NCBI RefSeq assembly: GCF_025245835.1
Contig: NZ_JAOBWS010000001.1
Coordinates: 806,001-870,000 of the forward strand
Source: Rheinheimera sp. 4Y26
GTDB lineage: Bacteria; Pseudomonadota; Gammaproteobacteria; Enterobacterales; Alteromonadaceae
Reading direction: 5' to 3'
DNA: 64,000 bases
The stretch's first letter is position 1. Each line of letters starts with the position of its first letter. Under the pieces are notes generated by a model that was given only the letters and a program-made list of their open reading frames with translations, did not search any database and was not told the DNA's origin. Positions 3,173-63,999 of the stretch are shown piece by piece. Both the position numbers and the translations under genes were made by a program.

Positions 3173-4159
3173 ATGATGATGTCATTAAAAGATAAGTTTT
3201 TAGCGCTCTGTGTGGTGGTGGTCTGGGGGCTGAATTTTGTGGTGATTAAGATTGGTGTGGAGCAGATGCCGCCGCTGTTACTGGCCGGTTTACGTTTTGT
3301 GCTGGTGGCATTTCCGGTCATCTTTTTTGTAAAACGCCCGCAGGTGCCGCTGCGCTGGCTGATTGCTTATGGCATGACCATCAGCTTTGGTCAGTTTGCA
3401 TTTTTGTTTTTTGCTATCAAGCTTGGCATGCCGGTTGGTCTGGCCTCGGTAATGCTGCAGGCGCAGGTGTTTTTTACCATCTTGCTGGGGGTATTGCTGC
3501 TGTCGGAAAAGTTGTACTGGTACCATATCGCCGGCATGGCGGTGACTGTGCTTGGCATGGTGATTCTGGCAACTGCCGGTATGCCAGGCGATGCCATACA
3601 AGCTGAACTTGCTCATGGCCAGCTTGCGCTGGGTCAAAACACTTCAGGTCAGGTCGCTCTGGATCAAAACAGTGCGGGCATCACGCTCACGACGCTGATT
3701 GTGATTCTGGCCGCGGCGCTGTCCTGGGGGCTGGGTAATATCAGCAATAAAATGATTATGCGTGACCATCAACCCGCTGTGATGTCGTTGGTGGTATGGA
3801 GTGCGCTGGTGCCGATAGCGCCATTTTTTGTCTGTTCCTGGTTATTTGACGGTACTGCAGTGATGACCGCAAGTTTGGTCAATATCCAACTGCCAACAGT
3901 GCTGGCACTGTGTTACTTAGCCTATATCGCCACTTTTGTAGGTTATGGCATTTGGGGTTACCTGCTTAGCCGCTACGAAACCTGGCGTGTTACGCCACTC
4001 TCACTACTGGTGCCTGTGGTGGGTATTTTCAGCGGCGCGCTGATCCTGGGCGAGCGGTTGGCCCCCCAACAAATGCTCGGTGCGCTGGTGATTATTATTG
4101 GCCTGCTGGTCAATGTGTTTGGTGGAACGCTGCAACAGCGATGGTTGCAAAGGGCATAG
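3173..4159 (+). CDS. EamA/DMT-family membrane transporter
   Basis: About 328 residues with ten predicted hydrophobic segments arranged as two EamA repeats (about 5-135 and 180-325), the architecture of YdcZ/RhaT/YedA-type metabolite exporters. Three ATG codons stand in a row at 3173, 3176 and 3179; the GCAGG just upstream fits the third best. Between the halves is an unusual hydrophilic loop (about residues 143-170) built from two near copies of a GQxALxQN motif, longer than is usual for the family. The substrate is unknown; amino acids or their derivatives are common for the family. It stands alone, followed by accessory island 1. Confidence 0.88.
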   Translation: MMMSLKDKFLALCVVVVWGLNFVVIKIGVEQMPPLLLAGLRFVLVAFPVIFFVKRPQVPLRWLIAYGMTISFGQFAFLFFAIKLGMPVGLASVMLQAQVFFTILLGVLLLSEKLYWYHIAGMAVTVLGMVILATAGMPGDAIQAELAHGQLALGQNTSGQVALDQNSAGITLTTLIVILAAALSWGLGNISNKMIMRDHQPAVMSLVVWSALVPIAPFFVCSWLFDGTAVMTASLVNIQLPTVLALCYLAYIATFVGYGIWGYLLSRYETWRVTPLSLLVPVVGIFSGALILGERLAPQQMLGALVIIIGLLVNVFGGTLQQRWLQRA

Positions 4160-4251
4160 CTGTTGCTTTATGCCTTTTAGCCGAAGCCTGCGACATGGCG
4201 CGGCATATTAGTTTTTAGTTTTCAGCTTGCAGCTGCTGGCGCTTTTGAAAC

Positions 4252-4475
4252 GGGGACTCGCCCCCGCGGGCGAGTCACTTTTTGTATCGACAAAAAGTGA
4301 CGCAAAAAACGACCCCGGTAAGCCTTCGAAAGCCCGCTAAAAATCAAAAGTTTGAGGCGCCGCCTGCTTTTTAAAACCACGGGGCAGCGGCTGCTAGCGT
4401 CAGCCGCTTCAAACAGTTGGCGTCTTAAAACCTCAAACTTTCAATTTTTATCGGCTCGGCTTAAAGGGGAGGGGT
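4252..4475 (+). repeat. Structured dispersed repeat, copy 1 (left boundary of island 1)
   Basis: This is one of four copies in the window. The outer end is a hairpin (GACTCGCCC pairing with GGGCGAGTC), followed by a second hairpin with arms GTCACTTTTTGT and ACAAAAAGTGAC. A long-range stem pairs AAGTTTGAGG with CCTCAAACTT and encloses a hairpin with 7-bp arms GCGGCTG/CAGCCGC around the loop CTAGCGT. The inner end reads CGGCTCGGC and then a G-rich run. The core from the CTTCGAAAGCCCGCT block to CGGCTCGGC is nearly identical to the copy at 56366-56600, apart from the changes that preserve pairing. Confidence 0.9.
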
Positions 4476-4559
4476 TTGATTCGAGAATTTAATTTTTTCT
4501 ATTATTTTTCAAGCGGGTATGTTTTGGCAAAAACCAAGATCTGACTCTGGTGCCTTTTG

Positions 4560-4769
4560 TCACTTTGCTTCTCGAAGACGGGGATACCGCCCAACGATGC
4601 CAAGAAGTAGCAACAGAATACAAGCCAGGCCTGCCAGGAGGATAAATGGTGGCGGAAAGTCCTCGCCTGACTGAGCCAGTTCCACCAGCCACCAGGTGAC
4701 AGCGAAGAACCCAACACCAAGTATCATGCTGATAAGGCGCAAAACCATTGCCATTTGTACCCATTTCAT
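4560..4769 (-). CDS. Small membrane protein in cassette 3 of island 1
   Basis: A 69-residue hypothetical protein that I do not recognise. It has two hydrophobic segments (about residues 8-29 and 40-58) with a short acidic/proline-rich loop between them, and a basic C-terminus. The chosen ATG has a GGAGG site 8 bases upstream; a TTG five codons earlier overlaps that site and is rejected. It is the last of three same-strand genes in island 1 and follows an attC-like site. No attC-like site follows it, so the cassette may have lost its end before the boundary repeat. Confidence 0.6.
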   Translation of the reverse strand: MKWVQMAMVLRLISMILGVGFFAVTWWLVELAQSGEDFPPPFILLAGLACILLLLLGIVGRYPRLREAK

Positions 4770-4846
4770 CCGTTGAGCCTCCAAACCCGATGTACCGAGA
4801 TTCTATTGTGACCTTGCGAAACGACTCTTATATGGTCGCTTCTGAT

Positions 4847-4902
4847 GCTTAACGTTTAAAGTAAGCGAAGGGTACGCGTTGCGTTGCCTTTGTTTGTTAT
4901 GT
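4847..4902 (-). other. attC-like recombination site between cassettes 2 and 3
   Basis: Read on the minus strand it starts with ACATAAC directly after the TAA of the 202-residue gene and ends with GTTAAGC, a perfect match to the GTTRRRY core consensus of integron attC sites. The 56 bp are short for an attC but near the lower limit. The start of the preceding cassette carries GTTATGT, the exact complement of this ACATAAC, as expected when each cassette's own attC halves are rejoined in a circle. Confidence 0.65.
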
Positions 4903-5511
4903 TTATTTTCGCCTAACCTTTGGACTAAAGAAATTTTCTATACTGTTGACCGATTCGGCAATTTGCCTACTAAAATCATCGTTCTCTGACGAGAAGTAGA
5001 CTATTTTGTCGTTTTCTATGACGCGCTGACGATTGTTGTCGACATTAGCACCCGGCCCAGCATAGGCTCCTTTCAGCCAGAAATGTAGCCATATAGCGCC
5101 TCTTATTTCACCGATTCGCTCTTGCAGACCATTAAAAATATCGTGCGCTTCGTTAGACCAGATAACTTTAGTTTCAAGGCGAATCGTTTGTAGTTCAGCC
5201 CATTTTTTATAAAGATGATTTAAACGTTCTTCGTAAATCCGTTGTTCTTCTTCCAGCCGGCGACCTGCTTCGACTTCCTCTTTACTAAGATATAGCATTG
5301 GGTTTCTTACTGACTGAAGGGCTTGCTGAACCCCATAGGTACCAAGGATCGCCTTTTTCGCTAGTTCGTATTCACTTGTACCTTTAAGCTGTCTACTCCA
5401 AGTAAACAAACCCAGCCCACCAATAATCAAAGCGCCTAAAGTGCCAATAATTGAAATGACATCTTTCGTAAGCGACCAATTAATTTCGCTAATTGTTACG
5501 CAGAGATTCAA
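4903..5511 (-). CDS. Hypothetical membrane-anchored coiled-coil protein, cassette 2 of island 1
   Basis: A 202-residue protein with one membrane helix near the N-terminus (about residues 16-38, an IIGTLGALIIGGLGLF stretch) and a cytoplasmic, charged helical region (about 45-130), rich in Glu, Arg and Leu and probably coiled coil. No catalytic motif is visible. The start is TTG, chosen because AGGAG lies 7 bases upstream and no in-frame ATG occurs before residue 70. Its cassette is bounded by GTTATGT upstream and the complementary ACATAAC right after the stop. Codon use is visibly more AT-rich than in the surrounding genes, in keeping with acquired DNA. Function unknown. Confidence 0.65.
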   Translation of the reverse strand: MNLCVTISEINWSLTKDVISIIGTLGALIIGGLGLFTWSRQLKGTSEYELAKKAILGTYGVQQALQSVRNPMLYLSKEEVEAGRRLEEEQRIYEERLNHLYKKWAELQTIRLETKVIWSNEAHDIFNGLQERIGEIRGAIWLHFWLKGAYAGPGANVDNNRQRVIENDKIVYFSSENDDFSRQIAESVNSIENFFSPKVRRK

Positions 5512-5526
5512 ACATTACTCCTATAA

Positions 5527-5613
5527 ACATAACGCTCGCCGCACAGGCCGAAACCCGCTCTGCGGTTGAGGTCTAGGCCACGCAGTCGCCGATTGTGACT
5601 GCGCCTGTTAAGT
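5527..5613 (-). other. attC-like recombination site between cassettes 1 and 2
   Basis: On the minus strand the site runs from ACTTAAC, a perfect RYYYAAC core that overlaps the stop codon of the 148-residue gene, to GTTATGT just before the ribosome binding site of the next gene. The 87 bp between contain nested inverted repeats, including arms CGCAGTC/GACTGCG, typical of the folded bottom strand recognised by integron integrases. Position, length and cores all fit an attC site. Confidence 0.7.
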
Positions 5614-6054
5614 GCGTTGTTTGGCATATAGCTCCCTCGCTTTTTGCAACCGCTTCACGATGGCCTGATATGTTGGACCTTTTCTAACGTCAGCAATACC
5701 TGCTGTACCATTCTTCAAATAAAACGCTTCAACTTTTTCAATGTACTGCGCACAGTAGAATATCTCTTGTTCGTAATTTTTTTCTTTCCTAGATAGAATT
5801 GCCACGCGCTCAAAGTAATAAGGTGCTGGAACCATACCAGCTTTTTCCATTGTCTTTAGTTCTGCATCGCAGCAGTGAATCATTGCATCGATGTCATGCT
5901 TCTTCTCATCAACCAGCTCCCAAGTTTGTTTGCCATCGACCAAATTAACCCCGTCCGTTACCTCTGCGATTAACTCGCCACTGGTTTTAGGAGTTCCATC
6001 TTTTTTGTGCATTGAAGACTGCTTTTTTTTAAACAAGAAACTTAAAATACTCAT
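5608..6054 (-). CDS. Hypothetical cytoplasmic protein, cassette 1 of island 1
   Basis: A 148-residue soluble protein that I do not recognise. It starts with a short hydrophobic and lysine-rich segment (MSILSFLFKKK), followed by an acidic central part and a C-terminal helical region with YYFERVAILSRKEKNYEQEI, which has the look of one or two TPR-like helical pairs. The second of two nearby ATG codons is taken as the start because GAGGG lies about 7 bases before it. The stop codon overlaps an attC-like core. It is the first gene of the array on the minus strand. Function unknown. Confidence 0.6.
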   Translation of the reverse strand: MSILSFLFKKKQSSMHKKDGTPKTSGELIAEVTDGVNLVDGKQTWELVDEKKHDIDAMIHCCDAELKTMEKAGMVPAPYYFERVAILSRKEKNYEQEIFYCAQYIEKVEAFYLKNGTAGIADVRKGPTYQAIVKRLQKARELYAKQRT

Positions 6055-6300
6055 CTGCATCCCTCAGCACTTAATAACTTAATCAATGGGGCAACCCTCG
6101 TTTTAAATCGTGGCTCGTCCCTTTTTTCTTTTAACGATGTTTTGAAGTTATACAGAAATATGATTTACGACAAGTGGTTATCAAGGCATTAGTTTTTGGT
6201 GAGCGTGAAAGTGGGGATAAACCCGGATAGTTAAATCATTGCTAACAACTTAAAAGATTCCTACTGCGCTGCTGTTGTTTAAACCCACAATCCTCCTGCC

Positions 6301-6521
6301 AGCGCTTTTCCTCCCCGTAAAGTGAGCCGTGGTTTTGGCCGGTTTTGAGGTTTTAAGCCGACAACTGTTTGAGGCAAGCGACGGTAGCGCTTGCCGAGTT
6401 TTGGCGGCGCCTCAAAATCGAGTCAAAACCACGGGCTTTCGAACGATCCCGGGGTGATTTCTTTGCGTCTCTTTCTTTGTCAGCAAAGAAAGAGACTCGC
6501 CTGCCGGGGCGAAACCCGGCA
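6301..6521 (-). repeat. Structured dispersed repeat, copy 2 (right boundary of island 1)
   Basis: The reverse-strand copy of the repeat seen at 4252-4475, so island 1 lies between inverted copies with the same end inward. It keeps the central hairpin (GCAAGCG/CGCTTGC around CTACCGT) and the GTCTCTTTCTTTG/CAAAGAAAGAGAC hairpin. Its long-range stem has changed to TTTTGAGG/CCTCAAAA, extended outward by CCGTGGTTTTG/CAAAACCACGG, so pairing is conserved although the sequence is not. The inner end shares GGGGAGGAAAAGC with the copy at 56366-56600. A 66-codon open frame within it is not a gene. Confidence 0.9.
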
Positions 6522-6648
6522 TAACACCCTTAGCTGCCAGCTAAACCAAAACCAGCGCCATATCAGCAAATGCAACATAAACCCGGCATAGCACCCTTAG
6601 CTGCCAGCTAACCCCCACCCCCGCATAGCTCCATCAGCTGCCAGCTAA
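6515..6648. repeat. Three spaced repeats with a 15-bp palindrome, outside island 1
   Basis: A unit of about 30 bp made of CCCGGCATA, a short CACCC spacer and the perfect palindrome TTAGCTGCCAGCTAA occurs at 6515-6544 and 6582-6611, with a decayed third unit at 6621-6648. The first unit continues directly from the outer hairpin of the boundary repeat. The equivalent position at island 2 holds a different palindrome family, so the position rather than the sequence is shared. Confidence 0.75.
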
Positions 6649-6936
6649 ACCAAAACCATTGCCCCTGTTGCAGAAACAGCCGCAAATCAACATCCCGTTT
6701 TACACGCTGTTATTCCTGTTTTCTAACCTGCACGTTGAGAATATTGTATACAGTATGTAGTATCGGTTTTGTCTAAAACAACAAGGCTTAACAGGCTGTG
6801 ATTGGCAGGCAGGAACAACGTAGGGCTAAAGTGGGAACCCAGGCTTACAGCTACGGCAAACCCAGTGTTACAGCTGCGCTGCAAAATCTGCCATGGCTAT
6901 ACAACCAACAATAAAGGGCCATCCAGGAGGCAAGCG

Positions 6937-56365: not shown

Positions 56366-56600
56366 GCCGGGTTTCGCCCCGGCGGGCGAGTCTCTTTCTT
56401 TGCTGACAAAGAAAGAGACGCAAAGAAATCACCCCGGTGTGCCTTCGAAAGCCCGCTAAAAATCAAAAGTTTGAGGCGCCGCCTGCTTTTTAAAACCACG
56501 GGGCAGCAAGCGCTACCGTCGCTTGCCTCAAACAGTTGGCGTCTTAAAACCTCAAACTTTCAATTTTTATCGGCTCGGCAAAACGGGGAGGAAAAGCACT
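56366..56600 (+). repeat. Structured dispersed repeat, copy 3 (left boundary of island 2)
   Basis: Same orientation as the copy at 4252-4475. It begins at GCCGGGTTTCGCCCCGGC, then the hairpin GTCTCTTTCTTTG/CAAAGAAAGAGAC, the long stem AAGTTTGAGG/CCTCAAACTT, and the inner hairpin GCAAGCG/CGCTTGC around CTACCGT. It ends in CGGCTCGGC and GGGGAGGAAAAGC. Compared with copy 1 the arms of two hairpins differ on both sides in a compensating way while the loops stay similar. Confidence 0.92.
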
Positions 56601-56925
56601 GAAATTGAGATTGGCTTTATCTGACATATCAAAAGCTAAAAAACGCTACTCCACTGTGCTTCACTCGCCCCAGACTAAAACATCACATAACGACTGAACA
56701 AATAGCCAGTTGTTTGTCATGAGTTTTTTCCGCACAACTTGCATACCAAGTGTATGCATTTTGTGAAGTCAGTATTTATCAGATTTAGAAAAATAAGTTG
56801 AAAAATAGTAACTTAGGCTTTAGCTTGATATGAGTAAAAATCAGAAAAGAAGGCAGGAAAATGTCCGACTTGCGAGCGCTCCACCTTCTATTAAATTGTT
56901 ATGCCTCACATTTAAAGAGATCATC
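56601..56925. other. Leader region of island 2
   Basis: About 325 AT-rich bases. A palindrome TGCATAC/GTATGCA lies at 56740-56758 and could be an operator or terminator. GTTATGC at 56898-56904 marks the probable left edge of the first cassette, since its complement GCATAAC lies at the end of the gene that follows. An upstream ATG at 56830 in frame with the first gene precedes this edge and is judged unlikely as the native start. Confidence 0.55.
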
Positions 56926-57582
56926 ATGACTCAAGAACAACTCACAACTATTAGCATAGCTATAGCCTCACTCAGCTTAGCTATATCTTTTGCGACGCTA
57001 TACTTCTCACAGTTAGCCGGGCCAAATGTTGTCGCAAATATAGGTCCGTATATCAAGGTTTTTAACGGTGATTACGCAAAAGGAATATCAACAGGAATCT
57101 ATGTCCCTGTTTCATTTTTCAACAAAACAGTCAGATCTTCAGTCGTAAAGAAAACAGCTGTTGAGATATTCCTGAAAAAAAACGATCAGAAGCGATATGT
57201 CATTTTTGGAAAACAGTACTCCGAGTTCGACTCATCGTCGAATTCATGGAAAATGCGAGACATTGCATACGCACTTCCGATACTAGGTAAAAGTTCAATC
57301 CAGAAAACAATTAGGTACAATTGGGATATGGAAAACCAAGAGAAATTATTGTTCGAAGAGGGGGTTTACACCTTTAACTTCATGTACTGGATTGAAGGAA
57401 AAGAAAATCCAGAATCACAGTCACATGAATTGGTGTTCGACTCGGCTGCCATTAAAAAATTAGATGAATTCATTAAAAACAAAAAATCGACGACTGTTGA
57501 TGTGATGCTTAACAGGCAAATGCCACTAAATAAATTAATGACAAAGCACGAATCAGAAAGAATGATTGGCAATCAGGCATAA
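56926..57582 (+). CDS. Hypothetical membrane-anchored protein, cassette 1 of island 2
   Basis: A 218-residue protein that I do not recognise. One N-terminal membrane helix (about 8-28, SIAIASLSLAISFATLYF) is followed by a beta-rich domain (about 35-180) rich in Lys and Ser. No catalytic motif is evident. ATG 56926 lies 22 bases after the probable cassette edge, with AGAGA before it. The stop codon is inside the core GCATAAC of an attC-like site. AT-rich codon use differs from nearby chromosomal genes. It has the same general form (one helix plus soluble domain) as cassette 2 of island 1 but no visible sequence likeness. Confidence 0.62.
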   Translation: MTQEQLTTISIAIASLSLAISFATLYFSQLAGPNVVANIGPYIKVFNGDYAKGISTGIYVPVSFFNKTVRSSVVKKTAVEIFLKKNDQKRYVIFGKQYSEFDSSSNSWKMRDIAYALPILGKSSIQKTIRYNWDMENQEKLLFEEGVYTFNFMYWIEGKENPESQSHELVFDSAAIKKLDEFIKNKKSTTVDVMLNRQMPLNKLMTKHESERMIGNQA

Positions 57583-57657
57583 CAAGGCCTTAAACAAAGC
57601 GGCCTTCAGCCGCTGGACTCGCAACAAGTTGCTTGCCGTTTAGGCGGGTCATTATGT
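57577..57657 (+). other. attC-like recombination site between the two cassettes of island 2
   Basis: From GCATAAC, overlapping the stop codon, to ATTATGT, 81 bp. The outer parts pair as in attC (CCTTAAAC left, GTTTAGG right), and an inner hairpin AGCGGC/GCCGCT is present. The right core has A in place of the expected G of GTTATGT, which may reduce activity. The left core is the complement of GTTATGC at the left edge of the cassette. Confidence 0.65.
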
Positions 57658-57681: not shown

Positions 57682-58560
57682 ATGAATCTAAGTTCGAAGT
57701 CCTTGGAAAAATTGCGCGAACTTATCAATGAGGAGACCGAATACCGTTCAGGCCCAAAACTCGTGCAGTTTTTCAATAATTTGGGCTTCCAAGATTCGTA
57801 TGGCCAAGGATTCCCTTCACGTTGGATGTACACAGACCAGCGCTTAGAAGAAATAAATGGATCGCTCGAACTCGATAAGTGCATTAGGGCTGTTTTTAAT
57901 CCAGCGAATTTTATCGGGAAATTGGCTAATTTAGACGCGCATATTACCTCTTTCAATCAATTCCTCACCTTTGACAAATGGAAAGTTGTCCGTAATGGTG
58001 CGGATATCAATTTCCAAAGACTCGAGAAAGTCGAAATTGACGAACCAACACCAGATGTCAAGGCTGAAACAGAAGACGAATTCCTAAGGCGTGAATTTAC
58101 CCGCGTATCTGTATCCAAGCTCGGACTAGAAGGCACCGTGAGCGGGGTTCTCGACCAACGGATTAGAGAAATTGAGAAGTGTTTCTTCGGAAAAGCATAT
58201 TTGGCCGTAATCCTAATGGCCGGAAGCACACTGGAAGGCGCGTTATTGGGCGTGGCTAACAATCACCCAAGATCGTTCAACTTGGCAAAAGCAGCCCCGA
58301 AGGACGGGGCGGGCAAGGTCAAGCAATTCCACGAGTGGACGCTCAGCGCTTTCATAGATGTCGCGCATGAACTCCGTATTGTTCAGCACGACACACAAAG
58401 ATTTAGCCATACGCTCCGAGATTTTCGGAACTATATACACCCATTTCAGCAAATGAGTTCTGGGTTTAGCCCAACTGAACATACGGCGAAACTATGCCTT
58501 CAGGTTTTGAAGGCTGCGATTTACGAACTAGGCGAAAATCTTGGAAAAGTACGCACATAA
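57682..58560 (+). CDS. AbiJ-like abortive infection protein with a HEPN-type motif
   Basis: A 292-residue soluble protein. The N-terminal 80 residues (LREL-NEETEYRSGPKLVQFF, then SYGQGFPSRWMYT) resemble the AbiJ N-terminal domain 3 that accompanies HEPN toxins. Near the C-terminus RDFRNYIHPFQQ (Arg246 to His253) fits the RxxxxxxH active-site pattern of HEPN RNases within a helical domain. Together they suggest a phage defence protein that cuts RNA on infection; the assignment is from memory of the family. ATG 57682 is chosen although a GTG at 57658 at the cassette edge is possible. The stop lies in the core of an attC-like site. Confidence 0.72.
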   Translation: MNLSSKSLEKLRELINEETEYRSGPKLVQFFNNLGFQDSYGQGFPSRWMYTDQRLEEINGSLELDKCIRAVFNPANFIGKLANLDAHITSFNQFLTFDKWKVVRNGADINFQRLEKVEIDEPTPDVKAETEDEFLRREFTRVSVSKLGLEGTVSGVLDQRIREIEKCFFGKAYLAVILMAGSTLEGALLGVANNHPRSFNLAKAAPKDGAGKVKQFHEWTLSAFIDVAHELRIVQHDTQRFSHTLRDFRNYIHPFQQMSSGFSPTEHTAKLCLQVLKAAIYELGENLGKVRT

Positions 58561-58635
58561 CAAGCGGCCGTTGAGGCCACTGAAAAGTGTGGCGGGACGC
58601 GCAAAAAGCACGCGCCCCAAGGTCGGGCGTTAATT
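58555..58635 (+). other. attC-like recombination site after the AbiJ-like gene
   Basis: ACATAAC, overlapping the stop codon, to GTTAATT, 81 bp, with internal palindromes such as GCGGCCG and GCGC-rich arms (GGGACGCGC with GCGCGCCCC-like pairing). The left core is complementary to the TTATGT edge at the start of this cassette. The right core departs from GTTRRRY at one base. Confidence 0.6.
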
Positions 58636-58682
58636 CCGCAATTCATTTAAACCAGAAAAACTTCAATCACCTCCCACTCTTA

Positions 58683-58893
58683 ACCCCGTCAAGCGAGCCG
58701 TTGTTTTGGCCGGTTTTGAGGTTTTAAGCCGACAACTGTTTGAGCGGGGTGACGCTAGCACCCCGCGAGTTTTGGCGGCGCCTCAAAATTGGTCAAAACA
58801 GCGGGCTTTCGAGCGATCTCGGGGTGATTTCTTTGCGTCTCTTTCTTTGTCAGCAAAGAAAGAGACTCGCCCGCCGGGGCGAGACCCGGCATT
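58683..58893 (-). repeat. Structured dispersed repeat, copy 4 (right boundary of island 2)
   Basis: Reverse-strand copy, so island 2 also lies between inverted copies. Its inner hairpin has arms GCGGGGTG/CACCCCGC around CTAGCGT: a third arm sequence in the family, again fully complementary, with a nearly unchanged loop. The long stem is TTTTGAGG/CCTCAAAA as in copy 2, and the GTCTCTTTCTTTG hairpin is kept. An open frame of 81 codons through it is not a gene. Confidence 0.92.
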
Positions 58894-58899
58894 AGCGCC

Positions 58900-59046
58900 A
58901 TGCCGCAGGCATCAAATACCCCCATGCCGCAGGCATAAAACAAATCAATAATACCCAGAGGTTAGGTGTAGCTGACACTGCTAGTGCAAGACCCGGCATA
59001 CGCGCCATGCCGCAGGTATCAAATAAAACAGCCATACCGCAGGCAT
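58900..59046. repeat. Four short palindromes to the right of island 2
   Basis: ATGCCGCAGGCAT at 58900-58912 and 58924-58936, with one-base variants at 59007-59019 and 59034-59046. Spacing is irregular. An inverted form lies left of the island at 56343-56355. The CCCGGCAT word of the outer hairpin is repeated with the third unit, as it is outside island 1. Confidence 0.75.
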
Positions 59047-62028: not shown

Positions 62029-63999
62029 TTATTGGCCTAAACCAACAGTCCAGCCTTTAGTCCAGTCGCTGCTGGCATCTACAGCACCCACAGTGGCGGA
62101 TTTGCTGAAGAAGCTGTTTACAGCCGACATATCTTTTGGTGTTGTGGTGTCGATGGTGTAAATACCATTGAGCACTGCTGCCTGATCAGCCGCTGTTTTA
62201 TTGCCGGTCTGGCCTTCAAACCATTGTTTCACCGTTTGGTTGGCAGATACTGTGCCTTTAAACGGCTCAGGGCAGCCAATCACAGAGTGGGTCATCACCA
62301 GGGCACCAGAGGCTGCGAGTGCCTGAGACTGAGCAGTTTCAATTTCCAGACACTCGCCCATACCAGTTGGGCCTGCAATGACAAAGTTATGCAGCTGGGC
62401 GTTGGTGCCAGCACGCAGCAGCACACCTTCAGAGTCTTTTTCGGCCGATTTGTAGGTGTTGCCGATAATGGTCATATTGGCGATGGTTGGGTTAGACACC
62501 GGCGTGGCATCAAACTTAGACGACTGGTTGTCGGCTTCAATACCGCGGTTGGCTTCAGCATTGTTGGCATCGTGTTTCACCAGGAAGTACTGGCCTTTGC
62601 CTGTCCAGCCATCTGCCCAGTCCAGTGAGTCATCACCATTGCTGGTTAAAACCACGTACTTGACGTTGACAGTACCGCCGAAAAACTCCACACCGTCATC
62701 CAGGTTCTGGTGCACCTGAATATGGCTGACGGTTGTGCCGGCACCCACGCCTGCGAAGGTAATGCCGTTTAATTCGTTGTCCTGCAGTACTTCATAACCG
62801 GCGTGTTTTACCCGCACATATTTCAGTACGCCTGAGTTGTCGTTGACATCAGCACCACCGTAAGGGCCGGCGTTGCCTTCAGCTTCAATTTTACAGGCGG
62901 CCAGATTGGCCTGGTCGCACTTGTTGCTTGGTGCTTTACCCAATAACACCATGCCGCCCCATTGACCGGCTGCCGTTGGTGCACCAATCACATCTTGCAG
63001 TGAAGTGAAGGTGATAGGGTTTTGCTGGGTGCCTTCGGCATTAATTTTTGAACCGCGGGTGACCACCAGGAAGTCTGCACCTGAGCGGCCATACACTGTG
63101 ACACCAGGTTGTACTGTTAAAGTGGCAGCTGTGGTGTTGTCCACACCAATGCGTACCCGGCCGTTTAACACATAATCAGCACCGGCTACTAAAGTGACGT
63201 TACTGGTGATATCACCTTTAAGTTCACAGTTTAATTTACCTGTTAAAGAAGCCACTTCAGTGGTGCCGGCAGGGCAGGCTGCAATAGCAGTGGAAGCGTG
63301 CAGGCCAAAAGTCCAGCCTTTGGTCCAGTCAGATACACCGTCAAAAGCACCGATGTAATCGACATCGTCAAACCAGGCATCAACAAAGTTCGACACGTTG
63401 TAACCGTTTTTCAGCGCAGGTGAGGTTGAAGCTGGCATATAACCACCCAGCAGCGCGTCTGTGGTCATATTGCCGCTTTGTGCCATAAACCAGGCTTTCA
63501 CATCCAGCAGGGTATTGCCTTGGGCATCTTTTGGATTTTTAAAGGGTTCTTTACAGTCGATAATAGAGTTGCGCATTAACAAACCGCCGTTTTGCGCCTG
63601 CTGCACTGACTGCTCGGTTTCAATTTCCAGACACTCGCCCATACCGGCCGGGCCTTTGATAATAGTGTTGTAAATTTCACCGGCCGTACCGGCGCGCAGC
63701 AAAATACCTTCAGAGTCGGCGTCGGCAGATTTGTAGTTGTTGCCAAGGATGGTCATGTTGGCAATTTTTGGTTTACTGACCGGGCTGGCAGAAAAGTTAC
63801 CTGACTGGTTGTCGGCTTCAATACCACGGTTGGCTTTAGCGTCGGTTTTGCTGTGCTGAATCAGCACATGTTGCATTTTCCCTGTCCAGCCGTCCGCCCA
63901 GTCTAATGAGTCGTCACGGTTGCCGGTTAACACCACATGCTTGGCATTGACAGTACCGCCAAAAAACTCTACACCGTCGTCCAGGTTGTTATGCACCTG
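62029..63999 (-). CDS. Exported beta-helix protein with tandem duplicated domains, 5' truncated
   Basis: At least 656 residues are coded; the frame is open to the window edge, and the GTG at 63996 is an internal Val, shown by the second copy, which reads QVHQNLDDGVEFFGG where the first reads VHNNLDDGVEFFGG. Two copies of a roughly 310-residue domain are present, each with NLDDGVEFF, DDSLDWADGWTGK, NRGIEADNQS, LLRAGT, MGECLEIET, and SDWTKGWT-GL at the end. These are parallel beta-helix surface or periplasmic proteins, often coded beside a TonB receptor in related bacteria. Function is unknown. More copies may lie upstream beyond the window. A strong terminator follows. Confidence 0.85.
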   Translation of the reverse strand, partial: QVHNNLDDGVEFFGGTVNAKHVVLTGNRDDSLDWADGWTGKMQHVLIQHSKTDAKANRGIEADNQSGNFSASPVSKPKIANMTILGNNYKSADADSEGILLRAGTAGEIYNTIIKGPAGMGECLEIETEQSVQQAQNGGLLMRNSIIDCKEPFKNPKDAQGNTLLDVKAWFMAQSGNMTTDALLGGYMPASTSPALKNGYNVSNFVDAWFDDVDYIGAFDGVSDWTKGWTFGLHASTAIAACPAGTTEVASLTGKLNCELKGDITSNVTLVAGADYVLNGRVRIGVDNTTAATLTVQPGVTVYGRSGADFLVVTRGSKINAEGTQQNPITFTSLQDVIGAPTAAGQWGGMVLLGKAPSNKCDQANLAACKIEAEGNAGPYGGADVNDNSGVLKYVRVKHAGYEVLQDNELNGITFAGVGAGTTVSHIQVHQNLDDGVEFFGGTVNVKYVVLTSNGDDSLDWADGWTGKGQYFLVKHDANNAEANRGIEADNQSSKFDATPVSNPTIANMTIIGNTYKSAEKDSEGVLLRAGTNAQLHNFVIAGPTGMGECLEIETAQSQALAASGALVMTHSVIGCPEPFKGTVSANQTVKQWFEGQTGNKTAADQAAVLNGIYTIDTTTPKDMSAVNSFFSKSATVGAVDASSDWTKGWTVGLGQ

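Follow-up and report, generated by a model that had tools for sequence, protein, structure and literature searches.

The analyzed window (C11:806001-870000, 64,000 nucleotides) lies in a 4.08-Mb genome assembled in 33 contigs and contains two short islands, each of which is bounded by two copies of a structured repeat, here referred to as arms (Table 1). A preliminary description had placed facing copies of about 220 bp at the two ends of island 1, and we confirmed both their positions and their orientation. The second pair that it described about 50 kb away, with other genes, is also real and is located at 56.4 and 58.7 kb. The two arms of island 1 have diverged from each other (70% identity over 186 bases), and the outer 95 bases of the island 2 pair are 97% complementary. 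The GC contents of the cargo are 43.1% and 42.2%, compared with 49.7% for the window.

Table 1. Features of the two islands in the window (shuffles are dinucleotide shuffles reaching the site score)
Feature	Position	Strand	Remarks
Island 1 left arm (structured repeat of ~210 to 220 bp)	4252-4475	+	3' end inward
Possible cassette gene 3, 74 aa	4560-4784	-	Less sure
attC-like site after island 1 cassette gene 2	4847-4902	-	Score 9.6; 1/500 shuffles
Island 1 cassette gene 2, 202 aa	4903-5511	-	
attC-like site after island 1 cassette gene 1	5527-5613	-	Scanner score 9.1; 4/500 shuffles
Island 1 cassette gene 1, 150 aa	5608-6060	-	No family found
Type-2 attI-like dock	6072-6236	-	13-copy alignment; profile 153.8 bits
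Island 1 right arm	6301-6521	-	3' end inward, immediately upstream of type-2 dock
Island 2 left arm	56368-56594	+	
Type-1 attI without intI	56735-56905	+	76% identity over 168 bases to intI-adjacent attI; 30-copy alignment
Island 2 cassette gene 1, 218 aa	56926-57582	+	
Island 2 attC relative	57578-57646	+	90 to 93% to attC sites of own arrays; R' core lost (R' box degraded)
Island 2 cassette gene 2, 300 aa	57658-58560	+	Partial PADLOC Stk2 match, 57 residues
Island 2 attC-like site	58555-58635	+	Score 10.3; 1/500 shuffles
Island 2 right arm	58680-58890	-	

The more unusual part of the layout, which the preliminary description overlooked, is the presence of putative integron cassettes at attI-like blocks, here called docks. 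The integron crossover has the consensus G|TTRRRY. In island 1, the conserved block lies 75 bp inside the right arm, with the crossover GTTATTAA at 6078-6071, and the dock of island 2 has its crossover, GTTATGC, at 56898-56904. Three genes had been assigned to island 1: the 202-aa and 150-aa ORFs indeed lie between att-like sites, whereas the third is less sure, since it overlaps a 91-aa ORF in a different frame. The scan detected no attC in the interval from this third ORF to the left arm. None of the five cargo genes in the window gave a match above the cut-off in Pfam or NCBIfam. A simple consensus scan of positions 56600 to 56960 for the cassette promoter Pc gave 0 sites, compared with 1.1 in shuffles.

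The attC-like sites were identified with our own scanner (not IntegronFinder), which replaced a first version without a central spacer that had reported 4 sites per strand on the cassette array of contig C30. It has a background: five comparison regions of ~79 kb, two of which hold islands, yielded 5 sites with scores of at least 11 and 24 with scores of at least 10, and a score of 10.6 was obtained inside an island 2 gene, above the accepted sites of the window. Five stretches of the window were tested with this scanner: the scores of three were reached by only 1 to 4 of 500 shuffles, one was 93% similar to an array attC and has lost its R' core, and the score of the fifth, the island 1 leader, was reached by 8 of 500. 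Each island contains two attC-like sites and no nearby intI, as judged by a background-prone scanner and with one of the sites lacking the R' core.

A single intI gene above the family cut-off was identified in this genome, on a contig other than that of the window (C30:211621-212565; 469.6 bits). It is adjoined by an attI and by a cassette array with attC sites, and these make up one complete integron. Six weaker intI profile matches occur elsewhere in the genome, none of them at another dock. The window gave no intI profile match within its range and no match at E 1e-25, and at this latter threshold none was detected at the intI-less docks fetched for comparison. Copies of the C30 attI without intI are found at position 56735 of the window, on C33, and at C11:301464. 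In all, the genome has at least nine docks (four type-1 and five strong type-2 docks), eight of them without intI; two weaker type-2 matches, L065:16071 (52.8 bits) and L080:7225 (70.3 bits), were not counted.

Across the genus, the type-1 attI block gave 65 matches in 17 of 22 genomes. By hand comparison with intI matches of E up to 1e-60, 11 of these are within 1.5 kb of intI and 54 are not. Two of the genomes consist of a single contig: G021 carries seven type-1 blocks and gave no intI match, and G016 has one intI and four type-1 blocks, plus a fifth seen in the family search, none of which is near the integrase gene. Docks are also present in G017, again with no intI match, so that the docks of G021 and G017 may be relics. 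The host flanks of some docks (e.g., L239, L251, and L253) are common to several species.

In the alignment of 30 type-1 copies from the genus, of which 7 are adjoined by intI, conservation extends as far as ATTAAATTG|TTA, or a variant that ends in GGATTGTTA, beyond which each copy continues into unrelated sequence. By our reading, the GTT at the core is kept in 22 of the 30 copies and altered in the others. This sharp border at the crossover looks like that of an attI with different first cassettes. Different cassettes are joined at the core in the type-1 blocks, and also in the type-2 blocks if these are taken as attI-like. The type-2 family was recognized because sequences homologous to the stretch between the right arm of island 1 and the first gene of that island occur inside other arms. 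Of 13 aligned type-2 sequences (matches above 1e-4 excluded), 11 share conserved sequence as far as GATTAAGTTGTTA (in the window, GTTATTA) and differ past it; of the other two, one is truncated at a contig end, and the second is a weak copy that lacks the conserved end. The profile was built without the truncated L155 and weak L065:16080 copies. This family was found in 4 of the 22 genus genomes, the match in G003 being short and weak. Type-2 docks could be conserved first attC sites; since they have no adjoining intI and can be drawn either as a long attC or as an attI, "attI-like" is the safe word for them.

Among the 32 intI-less docks with 3 kb available on both sides, a same-strand attC match was obtained within that distance downstream of 18 and upstream of 4. 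The 14 docks without a downstream match include L237, in the genome of the window, and L184.

The arms are numerous. Searches of the genome with the left and right copies of island 1 gave 28 and 29 matches, respectively, mostly at the same places and some of them fragments, and an arm profile recognized 25 copies of at least 100 bp in the regions fetched from this genome. Twenty-six arms fold into a shared predicted structure of 44 pairs, 26 of which have changes on both sides. In this structure, 94.8% of the cells can pair, compared with 78.9% in shuffles and 51 to 53% when the partner is slid by one column. Because the alignment itself served to predict the structure, pairing as such is favored, and the 191 double-change cells, compared with 71.7 in shuffles, are the stronger sign; further pair types show no excess (43 versus 44.5 in shuffles). 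The arms are a separate structured family with strong covariation. A known RNA family was ruled out, as no Rfam match was found in 4150-6700 at E up to 5. A search for plasmid relatives returned a single weak match of 65 bases in Variovorax.

Of 49 arms in G000, G012, and G018, 15 have a dock less than 600 bp away on their 3' side, none has one on its 5' side, and 2 further arms have intI on their 3' side (counting arms of at least 100 bp and docks of at least 35 bits). Conversely, 17 of the 21 docks without intI in these genomes are preceded by a same-strand arm, at a spacing of 185 to 194 bp for type 1 and 54 to 103 bp for type 2; L237, L080, L192, and L155 have none by profile. The arm and dock are homologous together at different loci. 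By our reading, a distal facing arm is present at only three of the eight strong intI-less docks of the genome of the window, and one more reaches a contig end. For attC matches the bias is weaker: within 2.5 kb, they occur 3' of 16 of 45 arms and 5' of 9 of 47. No arms were found in 18 dock regions retrieved from five further species. A truncated arm was observed 3' of intI in G012.

At orthologous sites, the cargo between or beside the arms differs between genomes or is absent. Ten genomes gave a CorA match, and the CorA site of island 2 was viewed in nine of them. Besides the window, it holds a facing arm pair with one attC cassette in G014, an arm and a type-2 dock in G012, an arm or partial arm near a contig end in G018 and G020, ~350 bp without an arm in G003 and G010, and other DNA, without arms, in G005 and G007, suggesting that cargo is attracted to this site whether or not arms are present. 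The comparison is thin for island 1, as the neighboring AraC gene is present in only 3 of the 22 genomes; in G012, the contig ends in a type-2 dock at this site, and G014 has neither an arm nor a dock there. One site with equal flanks (L074, L184, and L167) carries different cargo in three species: in two of them, a type-2 dock is followed by unrelated stretches of 552 and 1,024 bp (with an attC only in the first), and the third has a type-1 dock with another cassette. At the site L070/L187, 14 same-strand attC matches in G000 correspond to a stretch of 440 bp in G018.

Several facing arm pairs hold single genes without attC, and at some sites such genes, too, differ between genomes. At one site, with facing arms both in G000 (L068) and in G012 (L169), one genome has a HEPN-like gene and the other a MerR-like regulator, and the homology stops 8 bp past the left arm and restarts 34 bp inside the right one. 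Another site, represented by L193 in G005 and L198 in G014, also has different genes, one of them a PADLOC candidate (PDC-S31), and the homology stops 27 bp past one arm and restarts 8 bp before the other. A third orthologous site (L173, L180, and L073) has two different genes and a single arm. Global alignments of L070/L187 and L198/L193 were poor in the divergent parts, and block comparisons were used.

Two cases connect the docks with intI arrays. In G009, the array beside intI (L165) and an intI-less dock (L253) share a cassette, attC included, at 100% identity; at the dock, this cassette is in second place. The identity extends from a GTT border to a GTTAG border, and the flanks are unrelated. 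In G017, which gave no intI match, the first 405 bases past a dock match, at 84 to 85% identity, a cassette that G000 and G018 carry in their intI arrays.

The dock blocks, the attC-like sites, their dispersal, and the differing cargo at orthologous sites can be read directly from the sequences, and we consider it likely that both islands are integrase-less integron outposts, each consisting of an attI-like dock and captured cassettes between inward-facing structured repeats and served in trans by a distant intI. The single integrase would act on the docks from its own locus, and cassettes would be captured and released between the G and the TT of the core; such capture in trans is supported by the borders of the blocks and by the one identical cassette. 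If a lone distant intI serves the docks, then the integron is distributed across many loci on a single chromosome. The arms are a separate foldback family that also occurs without docks. In one clade, a dock could have come to lie at a near-constant distance inside the arm, after which arm and dock would have been copied jointly to many loci, and the arms may act as borders for cargo replacement, most likely through homologous recombination in arms and flanks. We think that two processes operate, namely, IntI capture in trans at docks and replacement of whole cargo between arms. The complete scheme, in which one trans-acting integrase serves about ten dispersed attI docks that in one clade multiplied inside a foldback repeat whose arms are still cargo-swap borders, is somewhat less likely than not.

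In Neisseria, minimal mobile elements consist of alternative genes between conserved flanks. The arms could likewise be no more than homology for cargo swap by ordinary recombination, with no site-specific step, the difference being that here short structured arms frame the cargo. This possibility, which we consider less likely than not, accounts for attC-free cargo that differs between species, with breakpoints located at the edges of the arms (as at L068/L169 and L193/L198), but it leaves unexplained the dock blocks that end at the G|TT crossover and the shared GTT-to-GTTAG cassette without flanking homology.

The preliminary description had proposed that the repeat pair is a boundary or mobility device with exchangeable cargo, and the orientation of the copies agrees with a boundary. 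Among 27 neighboring arm pairs at the fetched loci (arms under 120 bp excluded; arms outside G000, G012, and G018 taken from the best 12 scored candidates per genome), 19 are facing, 2 divergent, and 6 tandem, and with gaps under 4 kb the numbers are 18, 0, and 5; arms also occur singly and in tandem. This facing bias and the differing or absent cargo at orthologous sites uphold the boundary part. They would also suit a composite or foldback (MITE-like) transposon carrying any gene, with the transposase provided in trans, as would the terminal inverted repeats that facing arms form, as in MITEs, the six nearly empty pairs with spacers of only 70 to 128 bp, the complementary outer ends of island 2, and the joint homology of arm and dock at different loci. 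Against mobility, the ends of 15 arm pairs have no consistent direct word that could be a target-site duplication, the clean empty junctions that had been anticipated were not found at the compared orthologous loci, the genome has no match to Y1_Tnp/RAYT (PF01797), the transposase family searched for there, and no other transposase was tied to the arms. IS110-family genes beside or inside arms (L072, and L158 by 27% similarity) were considered as movers and are read instead as insertions into a preferred target. Such a transposon is rather unlikely; spread of arm and dock by transposition would agree with the layout, but no target duplication, clean empty site, or enzyme was found for it.

The docks might instead be leftovers of complete integrons that have lost intI, with the arms being unrelated intergenic repeats. 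CALINs have been proposed as degraded integrons in a passage of PMC9024848, and the docks of G021 and G017, in genomes with no intI match, as well as the 14 of 32 intI-less docks with no attC behind them, are what such decay would leave. In contrast, no intI profile match, even a weak one, lies at any dock of the genome of the window except that on C30, nor was one seen at E 1e-25 at the fetched intI-less docks. At least eight separate clean losses would be needed in one genome, and neither the near-constant spacing of dock and arm across loci nor the identical cassette that G009 carries both in its intI array and at a dock is expected from decay, which makes wholesale relics improbable. Least of all do we believe that the arms are just REP-like elements or terminators of the ordinary intergenic sort that happen to lie beside islands, as 34 of 49 arms without a dock within 600 bp and the single and tandem copies might suggest, since the docks lie at a narrow spacing on the 3' side only, no close neighbors diverge, and REP/BIME elements with a RAYT are ruled out by the lack of PF01797 in the genome.

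Integrons are described as consisting of a single integrase gene next to a single attI. In passages of the articles concerned, one attI per integron is stated (PMC3607928), and CALINs are described as cassettes away from intI that occupy conserved positions in Xanthomonas (PMC12444791) and are common in Shewanella (PMC9229058). Like a chromosomal (sedentary) integron, the islands have an attI block, cassettes, attC-like sites, and a G|TT crossover, but they lack intI, and many attI-like docks occur per genome. They share with CALINs the distance of cassettes from intI but begin with a conserved attI-like dock, none being mentioned in those descriptions of CALINs. According to a passage on IntegronFinder 2.0 (PMC9024848), attI sites outside class 1 are not detected, and such docks could therefore be overlooked. 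At attG sites (Loot et al. 2024, as cited in PMC12444791), IntI places cassettes outside the integron; as that passage has it, these are consensus sites that are neither attC nor attI, whereas the docks are homologous blocks of 165 to 200 bp. In Acinetobacter johnsonii, a 439-bp MITE is found at both ends of a plasmid-borne Tn402-like integron (PMC3934969), so that integron cargo lies between two copies of one short repeat as in the islands; here, in contrast, the docks are chromosomal and without intI, the arms are structured, and many loci are involved.

We found no report of dispersed attI docks in the open PubMed Central literature, and we file them, framed in one clade by foldback arms, as a variant of the integron/CALIN kind. 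The islands suggest an integron whose parts are scattered around the chromosome. With many intI-less attI docks, a single enzyme would be able to insert cassettes into many expression contexts, and such docks could explain the fixed positions of some integrase-less cassette clusters. The docks also open the origin of CALINs to direct testing, because a dock leaves a sequence signature that IntegronFinder ignores outside class 1. The arms themselves are a covarying border element, rich in palindromes and unmatched in Rfam, and the cargo between copies of this element is exchangeable.

In a family-wide search of 196 genomes (best four candidates scored per genome), nine genomes gave a match to the dock block, seven of them from this genus and two from one other genus. 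The dock motif was also recovered in 15 stretches of named genomes, comprising 12 from Rheinheimera, 2 from gammaproteobacterial metagenome-assembled genomes, and 1 from Niveispirillum irakense.

At loci L072 and L205, which come from two species, a shared foreign end joins the arm, a structured repeat of ~210 to 220 bp, at the same point of the arm's 3' motif; this would fit the arm being a favoured insertion target. At the CorA site, the chromosomal site of island 2, Rheinheimera genome G007 carries different DNA in which no arms were found, and the site thus looks like a general insertion site. This DNA holds a putative chromate-transporter-like gene, judged by eye.

Coordinates of arm-associated and other features
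Sequence	Positions	Feature
Window	6515-6663; 58879-59025	Repeated short palindromes immediately outside arms, TAGCTGCCAGCTAA-like and ATGCCGCAGGCAT-like
Window	62029-63996	Large ORF; 300-base direct repeat inside (72% identity)
L072	8672-9721	IS110-family transposase gene (Pfam), beside or inside arm
L158	13924-14904	27% relative of IS110-family transposase, beside or inside arm
L205	near 7477	Foreign end abutting arm
L151	8710-11312	G007 DNA at CorA site
L246		1,230-base segment
L248	11226-12455	1,230-base segment
L158	9821-10762	Second intI type
L249	7861-8808	Second intI type
L259	1160-1188	Type-1-dock-like stretch

Near two docks (attI-like blocks, most of them without an adjacent intI) of genome G016 lies a duplicated segment (99.9% identity), possibly an insertion sequence. 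Some members of the genus have a second intI type (45 to 50% identical), which no type-1 or type-2 dock match adjoins in the fetched loci. The type-1-dock-like stretch in a record titled Niveispirillum irakense (an alphaproteobacterium) terminates at GTTAACC, and the DNA that follows is AT-rich.
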